Shown: positions 3,204-59,192 of the stretch, piece by piece
How positions within the stretch are numbered: position 1 is the first letter of the stretch
Layout: every line of letters begins with the position of its first letter
Source: Fimbriimonadaceae bacterium
GTDB lineage: Bacteria; Armatimonadota; Fimbriimonadia; Fimbriimonadales; Fimbriimonadaceae
DNA length: 64,000 nt
Assembly: GCA_019454125.1 (NCBI GenBank)
Contig: CP075365.1
Span: forward strand, 2,102,218 to 2,166,217
Direction of reading: 5' to 3'
Notes under the pieces: model-generated
Told to the model about the DNA's origin: nothing
What the model saw: only the letters and a program-made list of their open reading frames with translations
The model's database searches: none
Made by a program: the position numbers and the translations under genes

Positions 3204-6200
3204 ATGTGCACCCGCCCCTTCGTCCATCTGCACAACCATACTGAGTACTCCCTGCTCGACGGGGCCACCCGCATCCCTCAAATGGTTGCCCGTGCTAAAG
3301 AAGAAGGAATGCCGGCTATCGCCATCACCGACCATGGTGTTATGTTCGGATGTATGGAGTTTTATTTCGAGTGCGTTAAACAGGGCGTTAAGCCCATTCT
3401 GGGAATGGAAGCTTATGTCGCTCCCCAGGGCCTGAGGGATCGGACCGCTAATGAAGAAAAGCAGGCTTACCACCTCTTATTGCTTGCGCGCAATGAGGAA
3501 GGTTACAAGAACCTTTGTCGCCTTCATTCAATTGCAGCGTTGGAAGGTTTCTATTACAAACCACGCATAGACCATGAGGTCTTAAGGAGCCATGCTAAAG
3601 GGTTGATCGGTTCGACGACCTGCATCGGTAGCGAGGTCAACCAGCTTCTTTTGGCAAGTAAGTACGACGAGGCCCAGTATCGGGCTGGTATGTACAAGGA
3701 GATCTTTGACGAGGGTTGCTACTTCGTCGAGCTTCAGGACCACGGGATCGATAAACAGACCCAAATGAATCAAGGCTTGCTGCGCATAGCGCATGAGCTG
3801 AACCTGCCGCTTGTAGCCACTAACGATTCGCACTTTCTGTGCAAAACAGATAACGAACCGCACGATGTACTTTTGTGCATCGGTATGGGCAAGCTTCGCT
3901 CCGACGAATCGAGGATACGGTTTACCGGCAACGAGTATCTAAAGACGGCTAGTGAGATGGCCGCCTTGTTCCCCGATCATCCCGAGGCGATCGAAAACTC
4001 TCTGCAGATTGCCGAGCTTTGCGAGCTAAACATTACTCCGTCACGGAACCTTATGCCCGAGCCGGACATGCCGGAAGGCGAAACTCCGACGTCTTACCTA
4101 CGAAAGCTCGCTTATGAAGGTTTATCATCGAGGCTCGGCAAGCAGGGGGACAATGAGTCTGAAAGGCTCGAATACGAACTCGGGGTCATCGAGAAGACCG
4201 GCTTCGACGCGTACTTTCTGCTTGTTAAAGAGTTCGCGGATTTCACGCGTTCAGAAAGTATCGCGTTCGGTGTAAGAGGATCTGCCGCAGGCTCACTTGT
4301 AAGTTATTGCCTCGGTATTACGGATGTCAACCCGGTTGAGTATGACTTAACGTTTGAGCGCTTCCTCAACCCTGAGCGCGTGTCTATGCCGGATATAGAC
4401 ATGGACTTCGAAGACGCACGCCGGGACGAAGTCATCCGCTGGGTCCAGGAGAAATATGGGGCAGACCGGGTCGCGCAGATCGTGACATTTGGGACGCTCG
4501 GCGCAAAGGCTGCAATCAAAGATGCGGGGCGTGTGATGGGGTTTCCGCCTGTGGAGACCGATAAACTTTGCAAGCTTCTACCCAACCGCCCGGGCTTGAC
4601 TTTGCAAAAAGCTCTGGACGAACCTTCCCCAGATTGCGGCGAAGATTGGATCCGCTTCTATTCCGAATGTTCCGATTTTAGGTCTGCGCTTGGAGACGCC
4701 AAACTGACCGGATTGGTGAAGACTGCAAGGACTATCGAGGGCCTCTGCAGGCACTCCGGCGTCCACGCCGCAGGGGTCGTCATTTCCAAGACTCCATTGG
4801 CGGATAGTGTCCCGCTTTATCGCTCAAGTGATGGTCAGCCGGTTACGGCCTACGAGATGGGAATCCTTGAGAAGCTAGGCCTTCTGAAGATGGACTTCCT
4901 GGGCTTGAGCAACTTGACGGTCTTGTCAAGGACTATCCAGAACATTGCGCAGACGCATCCTCAAAGCCCCATTGCTTTGGAAGGGGTTTCAGCGATCCCC
5001 TTCGAAGATGAAGCGACATTCGCGATGCTCTCTAAAGGTGACACGGTCGGAGTGTTCCAGCTAGAGTCGGGCGGGATGCGCCGGAACATTGTCGAGCTTA
5101 AGCCACAAAGCGTTCGAGAACTTGCGGCCATGGTCGCACTTTATCGGCCCGGTCCGATGGATCACATTCCAAGCTTTGTCGACAACAAGTTCGGCAGAAA
5201 GCAACCGGTCTATTTGGATCCAAAGATGGAGCCCATCCTGGCCGAGACCTACGGGATCATCGTCTATCAGGACCAAGTCCTCAAACTCGTTCAAGCGTTA
5301 GCGGGATTCTCGCTCGGTAAAGCCGACATTCTCAGGCGAGCGATGGGCAAGAAGGATAGGCTCGTCATGGAGTCTATGAAGGAAGAGTTTCTCAAGGGTT
5401 GCGAAGCTAACGAGATTATCCAAGAGGTAGCGAACGAAGTTTGGGAGCTTCTTCTGCCTTTTGCCGGTTACGCGTTCAACAAGGCCCACGCGGTTTGCTA
5501 CGCTATACTCGCATACCAGACGGCTTACCTTAAAGCCAATTTCCCGGTGGAGTATATGGCGGCTCTGCTCGCCGTCTATAGTGACAAGGAAGACCGGGTC
5601 ACGAGCTTTATCGAAGATTGCCGCAGGCAAGGAATCGCCGTGATCGCTCCGAATGTGACGAAGAGCTCCCTCGATTTTTCCGTGGAGCATTGCGAAACTG
5701 GTTACGCAATACGCTTCGGGCTTGGTGCCATAAAGGGCGTCGGAGAGGGACTTGTCAACCACATCATTGCCGACCGCGAGGAAAACGGCGAATACACCCA
5801 CTTTTATGAGTTTGCGGACCGGGTAAGGCCGGCTGGACTTAACAAGCTTTCCTTGGAGGCGCTTATCAAGGCGGGGGCACTTTCGGACATCGAGCCCAAC
5901 CGGAACAAGTTGCTGGAGAACCTGGAGGGGGCGCTGGCCTTCGCGGACACGGCCGGGCGACAACGCAAAGAAGGGCAAGACTCACTTTTTGGCGGGGGCG
6001 GAAACGAAGAGACTTCTTTGGAATACCCGACCCTCCCAGAGATGCCGGCGCCAGAAAGGTCGCAAGTTCTGCAGATGGAGAAGGACGTCATGGGGATCTA
6101 CGTTTCGGACCACCCGCTGCGAGCTGTGAGCCGCTCCCTTCCCTTCCTCGCCTCCAACACTTGCGCGCAGATCACTGAACTTGAAGAGCATGCGAAGGTC

Positions 6201-6782
6201 AAACTGGCTGGCGTCATGACGAACGTCAGAGAGATCGTGACCAAAGCGCGCGGCGAGAAAATGGCGAGCCTTATCCTGGAAGACCTTTCTGGACAAGCTA
6301 CCTGTGTCGTCTTCCCGGCCACTTACGCAAAATTCAAAGACCTCATTTCTAAGGACGCTATCGTCCGTATAATGGGTACGGTCTCGCACCGAGAACGACC
6401 GGGCGGGGGTGGTGAGAAGTCGGTCGAAGTCATGGTTGACGCGGTCGAACCTTTGCCTGTCGATATTAATGCGGCGGTCGTCGACGATTCCGTGATCGGC
6501 ACCGTGCTCATCCAAATCGAAAGGGCCACGCGAAAGGAGCTTGAGTCCATCAAAGAGTTGGTCGAACAACACCCCGGAGACTACGAAGTCGTTGTGCAGT
6601 TCGGAGCCAACCGCACCGGGCAACCCATGTTCCTTTTGAACCGGCTGGACGGGGCGCCGGAGACGGTGGCGAAGCTGCGGAGGTCGATCAGCCACGGCCA
6701 CGTCCAGGTCCTGCGCAACCGGGACCAAGAGACCGTTGCCCGCGAGCCTGTTGAGGAACCCTCAGTCGCCCTGGCACGTTAA
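3204..6782 (+). CDS. dnaE: DNA polymerase III alpha subunit
   Basis: Replicative polymerase catalytic subunit, 1192 residues, close to the usual DnaE length. The N-terminal PHP domain begins FVHLHNHTEYSLLDG and keeps AITDHG and ATNDSHF, so its metal-binding residues look largely intact and proofreading or structural metal binding is possible. The palm motif PDIDMDF places catalytic aspartates at about 397 and 399. Helix-hairpin-helix and OB-fold regions follow, the OB-fold beginning near KLAGVMTNVREIV (about residue 1000). Start ATG at 3204 is chosen because the PHP motif follows within ten residues. GC is near 50 % over much of the first 2.6 kb and rises to about 65 % towards the 3' end. Confidence 0.97.
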   Translation: MCTRPFVHLHNHTEYSLLDGATRIPQMVARAKEEGMPAIAITDHGVMFGCMEFYFECVKQGVKPILGMEAYVAPQGLRDRTANEEKQAYHLLLLARNEEGYKNLCRLHSIAALEGFYYKPRIDHEVLRSHAKGLIGSTTCIGSEVNQLLLASKYDEAQYRAGMYKEIFDEGCYFVELQDHGIDKQTQMNQGLLRIAHELNLPLVATNDSHFLCKTDNEPHDVLLCIGMGKLRSDESRIRFTGNEYLKTASEMAALFPDHPEAIENSLQIAELCELNITPSRNLMPEPDMPEGETPTSYLRKLAYEGLSSRLGKQGDNESERLEYELGVIEKTGFDAYFLLVKEFADFTRSESIAFGVRGSAAGSLVSYCLGITDVNPVEYDLTFERFLNPERVSMPDIDMDFEDARRDEVIRWVQEKYGADRVAQIVTFGTLGAKAAIKDAGRVMGFPPVETDKLCKLLPNRPGLTLQKALDEPSPDCGEDWIRFYSECSDFRSALGDAKLTGLVKTARTIEGLCRHSGVHAAGVVISKTPLADSVPLYRSSDGQPVTAYEMGILEKLGLLKMDFLGLSNLTVLSRTIQNIAQTHPQSPIALEGVSAIPFEDEATFAMLSKGDTVGVFQLESGGMRRNIVELKPQSVRELAAMVALYRPGPMDHIPSFVDNKFGRKQPVYLDPKMEPILAETYGIIVYQDQVLKLVQALAGFSLGKADILRRAMGKKDRLVMESMKEEFLKGCEANEIIQEVANEVWELLLPFAGYAFNKAHAVCYAILAYQTAYLKANFPVEYMAALLAVYSDKEDRVTSFIEDCRRQGIAVIAPNVTKSSLDFSVEHCETGYAIRFGLGAIKGVGEGLVNHIIADREENGEYTHFYEFADRVRPAGLNKLSLEALIKAGALSDIEPNRNKLLENLEGALAFADTAGRQRKEGQDSLFGGGGNEETSLEYPTLPEMPAPERSQVLQMEKDVMGIYVSDHPLRAVSRSLPFLASNTCAQITELEEHAKVKLAGVMTNVREIVTKARGEKMASLILEDLSGQATCVVFPATYAKFKDLISKDAIVRIMGTVSHRERPGGGGEKSVEVMVDAVEPLPVDINAAVVDDSVIGTVLIQIERATRKELESIKELVEQHPGDYEVVVQFGANRTGQPMFLLNRLDGAPETVAKLRRSISHGHVQVLRNRDQETVAREPVEEPSVALAR

Positions 6783-57787: not shown

Positions 57788-57831
57788 CCTGACGATGGTA
57801 CACTCATGTTCTTGAGTGTAAGGGCATCATG
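57788..57831 (+). promoter_or_regulatory. Operator-like inverted repeat before dnaJ-hspR
   Basis: Eight-base arms TACACTCA (57799-57806) and TGAGTGTA (57813-57820) with a six-base gap, ending eight bases before the ATG. It contains CTTGAGT (57811-57817), the exact HAIR half-site of HspR, and ACTCATG (57802-57808), one mismatch from the other, in reversed order; CCTGACG sits N7 before the latter. Likely HspR binding site. Confidence 0.55.
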
Positions 57832-58791
57832 ACGCGTGACTACTACGAGGTGTTGGGAGTCCCTCGCCACGCCGACGAGAAGCAGATCAAGTCGGCCTAT
57901 CGCAAGCTCGCCCGGAAGTACCACCCGGACGTCAATCCGAACGACCCTTCTTCGGAGGCCAAGTTCAAGGAGATCGGCGAAGCCTACGCTGTTCTGGGCG
58001 ACGAGGAAAGGCGCAGGAAGTACGACCGCTTCGGCAGCCGGTTCGAGGAGGCTGAGCAGTACGGGGGCGGCGGCTTTCAGGTCGAAGAGGGAGACTTCGA
58101 CTTCGGCTCTATATTCGGCTCGATCTTCGGGGGTTTCGGGGGTGGTGGCGAAGCCTTCACCCGGCTCCGGGGGATGGAGCCGCACGACGTCGAGCATGCG
58201 ATCGAGGCCACGCTTGAGGAGATCGACTCGGGCACCTCGCGGACGCTGACTTACCAGACCCAAGACGCCTGCCCGACGTGCCAAGGGACGGGGCAGGTCA
58301 CGCTGGGCGACGCCCGGCGGCGTGGGGTCTGCCCGACCTGCCGCGGGACGCGGACCGTCGCGAACTCCCGGCGCATCCAGCTAAAGATCCCTGCCGGGTT
58401 CGAGGACGGAAAAAAGCTACGGGTGCCGGGGGGCGGGGCCAAGGGTTCCAACGGCAAGTCCGGAGACCTCTTCGTCGCCGTGCGGGTACTGCCGCACAAG
58501 CTCTTCAAGCGGAAGGGTGAGGACACCGAGGTGAGCGTCGACCTTCCCTTCACCCTGGCCGCGCTAGGCGGGCAGGTCCGGGTGCCTACCCCGCGCAGCG
58601 CGGGGCACATCACCGTGCCGCCGGGGACCCAGACGGGCCAAATTTTCCGCCTGCGCGGACAGGGGATCACGAAGCTCAAAGGAGGGCGGGGCGACCTGCT
58701 CGCCCGGGTGCGGATCACCGTCCCCGAGAAGCTGACCGATAAGCAAAAGAGACTGCTGCAAGACTTCGCCAAAACGGAGGAAACGTCGTGA
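57829..58791 (+). CDS. dnaJ: DnaJ/CbpA-type co-chaperone with a reduced zinc finger
   Basis: 320 residues. The J domain ([36 protein letters not shown]) with the HPD tripeptide at 33-35 stimulates DnaK. A Gly/Phe-rich linker ([19 protein letters not shown]) and the substrate-binding C-terminal barrels follow ([18 protein letters not shown], then [16 protein letters not shown]). Only two CxxCxG-type motifs are present (CPTCQGTGQ and CPTCRGTRT, near residues 146-167), giving at most one zinc site, where standard DnaJ has four motifs and CbpA none. It heads an operon with hspR, with which it overlaps by GTGA (58788-58791). DnaK and GrpE are not adjacent. Confidence 0.93.
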
Positions 58792-59192
58792 GGAGTCGGC
58801 AGCACCCGGTCTATATGATCGGGGTGGCCGCGGAGCTCTGCGGGGTGCACCCACAGACCCTCCGGCAATACGAGCGGCTCGGCTTGGTCGTCCCCGCCCG
58901 AGTCGGCACCAAGAACCGGCTTTACAGCGACGAAGACGTCCAACGGGTGCGCCGCATCCAACGGCTGACCCAGCAGTTGGGAGTCAACCTTGCGGGGGTC
59001 GAAATCATCCTTCGGCTGCTCGACGAGATGGACGAACAGCGGATGGACTTTGAACAACAAATGGAAGATTACGCCACCGAAGTTGAACAAAGGGTGCAGA
59101 ACATGCTCCAGAACACGAACGTCCCCGTCCGCACCGACGGCCGCCTGTTGCCCGTTCCGAAGTACCGTCCCGCGCGAAAGTCCGATCTTTAA
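58788..59192 (+). CDS. hspR: HspR-type MerR-family heat-shock repressor
   Basis: 134 residues from a GTG overlapping the dnaJ stop. The MerR-type winged helix is at residues 9-75: [47 protein letters not shown], with the [13 protein letters not shown] stretch characteristic of HspR, then a coiled-coil dimerisation helix (about 80-110). In actinobacteria HspR binds HAIR sequences with DnaK as co-repressor. Here it is co-transcribed with dnaJ, and an inverted repeat with HAIR half-sites lies upstream of dnaJ, so autoregulation of the pair is likely. Confidence 0.9.

Follow-up and report, generated by a model that had tools for sequence, protein, structure and literature searches.

How is the dnaJ-hspR operon of this Fimbriimonadaceae bacterium controlled, and through what kind of site? 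The window, that is, the whole stretch of 64,000 nucleotides that was analysed, belongs to a genome of 2.65 Mb in a single contig. At positions 57788-57831 it contains an element read directly from the sequence as CCTGACG-N7-ACTCATG-TT-CTTGAGT-N7-CATCATG. The binding site of the repressor HspR, HAIR, has the 14-base consensus CTTGAGT and ACTCAAG, seven bases apart. The sequence-only reading proposed that the element is an HspR operator whose halves stand in reverse order as a separate inverted repeat, or else that it consists of two degenerate tandem HAIR sites. All of the strings quoted there, and the inverted repeat, proved exact on a direct check of the window sequence, and the coordinates place the repeat, as claimed, 8 to 30 bases 5' of the dnaJ start codon at 57829. 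The features of the locus are as follows, in window positions.

57788..57794, + strand: H1, CCTGACG, decayed left half of HAIR site A, with 4/6 matches to CTTGAG, in the column of CTTGAGY of relatives
57802..57808, + strand: H2, ACTCATG, right half of HAIR site A, with TCA invariant in 28/28 first-set loci
57811..57817, + strand: H3, CTTGAGT, perfect left half of a second, predicted site B, 23 bp after H1
57825..57831, + strand: H4, CATCATG, proposed degenerate right half of site B on an exploratory basis; it ends in the start codon of dnaJ
57799..57820, no strand: perfect inverted repeat TACACTCA-N6-TGAGTGTA, arms of 8 bp each, read as H2 and H3 with extensions, back to back
57799..57804, + strand: TACACT, -10-like sequence of a putative promoter, with TG at 57796-57797
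57829..58791, + strand: dnaJ, with Pfam DnaJ and DnaJ_C above cut-off and NCBIfam DnaJ_bact below it (309 vs 377 bits)
58788..59192, + strand: hspR, MerR-type repressor gene, with NCBIfam HeatShock_HspR at 112.5 bits (cut-off 105) and Pfam MerR_1

The hspR gene is the second gene of the operon, after dnaJ, and a divergent gene encoding an HDOD-domain protein (Pfam) is located upstream of the element. The closest named relatives of this HspR come from Fimbriimonadaceae and other Armatimonadota, and a match to HspR, in some cases weak, was found in 59 of the 61 genomes searched. By eye, the DnaJ protein has only two CxxCxGxx motifs (window 58268-58360), and its central zinc-finger domain is not reported by Pfam.

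Palindrome and tandem half-sites

The palindrome pattern with up to three mismatches has two matches in the window against 0.02 expected; a pattern read off its own site is rare by construction, so that conservation is the real test. The whole genome contains one exact copy (57799-57820) and one copy with three mismatches. This partial palindrome, the only other one in the genome, lies at window 5793-5814 (TACACCCA-N6-TGAGTTTG). A looser pair, RCTCAWG-NN-YTTGAGY with up to two mismatches, gave 8 matches against 3.1 expected, a count reached by 4 of 100 shuffles, and its exact match is confined to the dnaJ-hspR element.

The search for the same inverted repeat before other heat-shock genes, suggested earlier as a check, thus yielded no second copy within two mismatches anywhere in the genome, which counts against the palindrome as a unit; as a recurring unit it was rejected. 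The same result favours an operator of some other regulator, or a chance palindrome. This explanation is given a small probability, as it is opposed by the conservation of the element in relatives and its match to HAIR, described below, and by the presence of hspR as the second gene of the operon.

Conservation was assessed in two sets of loci. The first comprised 35 loci of the family, of which 30 were readable before dnaJ; removal of L011, which has no good HAIR, and of L047, which nearly repeats L046, left 28. Five of the 35 gave no DnaJ by motif, three of these being cut by contig ends, and two of the loci without DnaJ by motif, L023 and L026, show the operator and DnaJ as L071 and L083. 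The further set was drawn from the best 48 loci (L116-L163) of another collection, of which 2 were without DnaJ, 15 repeated the first set and 31 were new, representing 28 distinct cores. With L155 and L160 excluded, the two sets provide 54 distinct loci.

At the equivalent place, the relatives carry a canonical HAIR, CTTGAGY-N7-RCTCAWR, together with a third half-site, and show 0-4 mismatches to the relaxed HAIR consensus. The conserved columns in the 28 first-set loci are H1, the GT following it, TA at +11/+12, H2 and H3; flank columns -40 to -17 hold at most 0.31 bits each. Of these loci, 20 have the motif TTGA[AG] at +1 and 21 have it at +24 (the other 7 lack it there); of the 31 further loci taken from the best 48, 26 have it at +1 and 29 at +24, with one occurrence at most at any other offset in either set. 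The further-set misses at +24 are L128 and L160, the latter lacking a HAIR, and L155, where the HAIR is doubtful, was counted as a match. At least four of the five letters of TTGAG are present at +24 in 49 of the 54 distinct loci; the mean count for the remaining offsets is 0.6.

In the relatives H1-N7-H2 is therefore an ordinary HAIR in the usual order, with H3 placed 23 bp on, and the pair that appeared to be reversed consists of neighbouring halves of two successive HAIR sites, the right half of the first and the left half of the second. In the window species H1 has decayed and H3 is perfect, so that the palindrome arises from the adjacency of the two strongest half-sites. Its arms reach eight bases because the half-site consensus (ACTTGAGCGT) extends beyond seven bases and two such half-sites adjoin. 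The view of the reversed halves as a separate inverted-repeat unit was not upheld, given the lack of a genome copy within two mismatches, perfect arms in 3 of the 54 distinct loci, and conservation of both flanking half-sites. The relatives favour the other reading offered, two degenerate tandem HAIR sites, through H1-N7-H2, H3 at fixed spacing and the exploratory test of H4 given below.

Measured against the HAIR consensus, site A of the window species has four mismatches and site B three. An H1 score as low as that of the window (4/6 to CTTGAG) is found in 3 of the 54 loci, and the score of its H3 (6/6) in 8. Where H3 is perfect, H1 is imperfect in 6 of 8 loci, against 10 of 46 otherwise (p 0.006), and since the loci are related this and the other p-values given here overstate the case. 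Across the 54 loci the strengths of H1 and H3 show no significant rank correlation (p 0.10). Evidence that a perfect H3 makes up for a weak H1 is only suggestive.

The inverted repeat might also act in RNA, as a hairpin in the dnaJ leader, for example a thermometer. In the fold predicted for 57795-57850 its arms are paired, and a shift of the partners by 1-3 columns reduces pairing from 71% to 20-39%, a drop expected for any two complementary half-sites. However, the fold is ordinary (z -0.62, with 49 of 200 shuffles as good). In the 28 loci the share of paired cells is 71.4%, and in shuffles 69.0%; the observed pairing is reached by 37 of 500 shuffles, and the covariation score is reached with 51 of 500 shuffled partners. 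Moreover, the putative -10 sequence is inside the left arm, so that this arm would be absent from the transcript. Compensating changes in the paired arms are not clearly above shuffles and, perfect arms being as infrequent as noted above, an RNA hairpin is not supported and is very improbable.

Promoter and dnaJ start codon

The suggestion that the element could cover a promoter is in keeping with a -10-like sequence. The sequence TANNNT occurs at +11, in the same column, in 43 of the 54 loci and is represented in the window by TACACT with TG 5' of it, whereas a simple sigma-70 scan found no promoter at the window element. Judged from the -10-like position, the transcription start would fall within H3.

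With H3 taken as the left half of another HAIR, the matching right half would occupy +37 to +43. In 31 of 52 loci (two of the 54 gave no ATG) the first in-frame dnaJ ATG is at +41, and T followed by C or T precedes the ATG in 15 of the 31 loci in register, against 1 of the 21 out of register (p 0.0007; exploratory, the loci being related). This gives exploratory support to a putative fourth half-site containing the dnaJ start codon. The columns of its region, 37-40, hold 0.11-0.36 bits, and this poor conservation favours a single HAIR operator, in which HspR would occupy H1-H2 only and H3 would be kept for early transcribed sequence, ribosome binding or weak contacts. Helicobacter pylori offers a parallel: according to PMC6102357, its operators have a single HAIR from which binding extends cooperatively into unrelated flanking sequence. 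On the other side, H3 repeats the half-site sequence at a fixed spacing, an H3-like half is found again, displaced downstream by one base, in 9 of 19 family dnaK operators, where the start codons are further away, and the H1 required by a single HAIR is the weakest part in the window. A single HAIR operator is thus considered unlikely, if well short of negligible.

A second promoter-like element is found in relatives. The sequence [GC][AG]AAC at -16 is associated with CGT at +6, which is present in 20 of the 23 loci with it and in 11 of the 31 without it (p 0.0002; loci related); the further loci taken alone give p 0.13. In the first set, a GRAAC element is present in 13 of 28 loci, 12 of these with CGT. 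In 12 of 19 genomes of the family, among them the present one, dnaK is preceded by the form GGAAC-N17-CGTT beside a HAIR:

genome C1:1560899-1560924, minus strand (L065, L259): GGAAC-N17-CGTT before dnaK; found in relatives in L225, L226, L228, L229, L231, L233, L236-L240 and L080

The same element is carried by SigH/SigE promoters of Corynebacterium glutamicum, a species whose dnaK is likewise associated with a HAIR (PMC10012870). The dnaK regions of the family resemble that system; in contrast, the window's own dnaJ promoter is without GGAAC-N17-CGTT, and the whole genome shows no excess of it (26 matches vs 23 in the control). The element is therefore credible only where conserved in relatives, and was rejected as a regulon of this genome. 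One of the 26 matches, not above chance, is at window 6755-6780 (genome C1:2108972-2108997).

The sister families f2-f5 are organised differently. In 11 of their 16 loci a site CTTGAYA-N7-RCTCAAG lies 3.1-3.7 kb before hspR, and in the other 5 no HAIR-like site was found within two mismatches. TTGA[AG] is present at +24 in none of the 11 sites, and dnaK was seen between the HAIR-like site and hspR in 9 of the 11, nine having been inspected; the window's genome has its dnaK at a distance of 0.6 Mb. The tandem operator thus seems to be a feature of the lineage where dnaJ-hspR has a promoter of its own. In eight sister-family loci (L199, L201-L205, L209, L210), the left half CTTGACA contains a perfect sigma-70 -35 hexamer, TTGACA, and several of these have TATAAT-like bases about 19 bp after CTTGACA.

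HAIR and CIRCE sites in the genome

A HAIR model of 25 positions was built from the 28 first-set loci, the window site among them, and 150 of 276 first-look candidates were scored with E up to 10. Three places in the genome were found among the candidates scored, all of them before heat-shock genes:

before dnaK: CATGAGC-N7-GCTCAAG, E 0.036
before a small-HSP gene: CTTGAGC-N7-GCTCATA, E 0.80
before dnaJ: the window element, E 1.43, the site itself being part of the model

The small-HSP gene is below the cut-off of every NCBIfam model that it matched, and an H3-like half-site is absent from its operator. A degenerate HAIR, TTTGATA-N7-AGTCAAG, was found by inspection directly 5' of the clpB ATG and is not listed in the model scan. 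The clpB start codons adjoin or overlap the right half of HAIR in relatives (L084, L086, L091, L101) and in this genome (L111, near 4082), so that a repressor site there would cover the translation start. The plain HAIR pattern with up to three mismatches gave 45 places in the whole genome against 120 in the reversed control, and was discarded as useless for a genome search.

Among relatives, 27 of 37 genomes have a match to the HAIR model at E up to 1. In 30 chosen loci the match precedes dnaK in 9, clpB in 9, a small-HSP gene in 2, dnaJ in 2 and nothing recognised in 6, with L090 and L094 left unassigned. Two of the 30 belong to the window's own genome, genes of relatives were named by sight, and most matches already known before dnaJ, as well as some others, were left out of the choice.

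The genome also has hrcA (257 bits vs a cut-off of 197), and the element contains CACTC...GAGTG, which would fit a CIRCE-like site for the HrcA repressor. However, the CIRCE consensus has a spacer of 9 (PMC7464140) and the element one of 8. The CIRCE-like sites before groES of the same genome, a gene named by sight, keep the spacer of 9 and have TTGG/CCAA outer arms. At the window element it is HAIR spacing that is conserved in relatives, and GCACTC-N9-GAGTGC with up to two mismatches shows no excess in the genome (89 matches vs 127 in the control). Identity with CIRCE was rejected on the spacer, and this explanation is scarcely credible; the presence of hrcA and of groES sites with nine-base spacers indicates that CIRCE is a separate element. 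The two CIRCE-like repeats before groES are TTGGCACTC-N9-TACTGCCAA and ATCACTC-N9-GAGTGCCAA (L064 1470-1530; genome near C1:1827873-1827925).

A candidate HspR operator

The proposal of an HspR operator is supported by the presence of hspR in the operon, the conservation in relatives, the HAIR before dnaK and the small-HSP gene, and the degenerate HAIR before clpB. The element is probably an autoregulatory operator of dnaJ-hspR, a candidate defined by sequence comparison, with two tandem HspR sites on the promoter. One HspR dimer would bind HAIR site A (57788-57808), over the -10 region, and a second would bind site B (57811-57831), 23 bp on, over the predicted transcription start and the start codon. 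Together the two cooperating dimers may exclude RNA polymerase until heat stress. DnaK aids repression by HspR, and misfolded protein draws DnaK off on heat shock. Counting against the predicted operator, the H1 of the window is among the three poorest of the 54 loci. In H. pylori and Campylobacter jejuni, HspR binding is lost or much reduced when one arm of the main HAIR is damaged (PMC6102357, PMC7464140).

Operators with several HAIR sequences are known. In C. jejuni a stronger, high-affinity HAIR is flanked by weaker, low-affinity ones with a conserved left arm and a right arm that is not, cooperative spread of HspR has been proposed, and HrcA/CIRCE is separate, as reported in PMC7464140. 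Unlike there, the second predicted site in the present family has a fixed 23-bp step and lies mostly downstream, over the start codon. The dnaK operon of Streptomyces coelicolor has three HAIR repeats in one promoter, the consensus CTTGAGT-N7-ACTCAAG and HspR autoregulation, as cited in PMC6102357, whereas in the window species dnaJ-hspR has a promoter separate from that of dnaK. HspR of H. pylori likewise acts at its own promoter by autoregulation, with HAIR near the transcription start and cooperative dimers proposed; in the same source, one HAIR per operator is reported, with no further HAIR-like sequence. Among open-licence papers, searched by title and the start of the abstract, none was found on an HspR operator of this kind in this group.

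Most likely, the operator would be ordinary in kind, with a layout common to related bacteria. A wider proposal can be put forward tentatively, and is rather doubtful as a whole: an operator found throughout the family, with two HspR sites phased at 23 bp, the right half of site B being built round the dnaJ start codon and the strong half-site passing between subsites without loss of control. In many relatives this operator would overlap GGAAC/GAAAC-N17-CGT, which would mean that HspR and an extracytoplasmic-function sigma factor control it together, in bacteria other than Actinobacteria. Of interest are the 23-bp phasing, which is conserved, the position of the start codon within the putative H4, and the movement of the strong half-site. 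If the operator is real, the HspR switch would extend to a little-studied group of bacteria, with a probable regulon of dnaK, the small-HSP gene, clpB and dnaJ-hspR, and would provide a simple case of a repressor operator that still works while its strong half-site moves.
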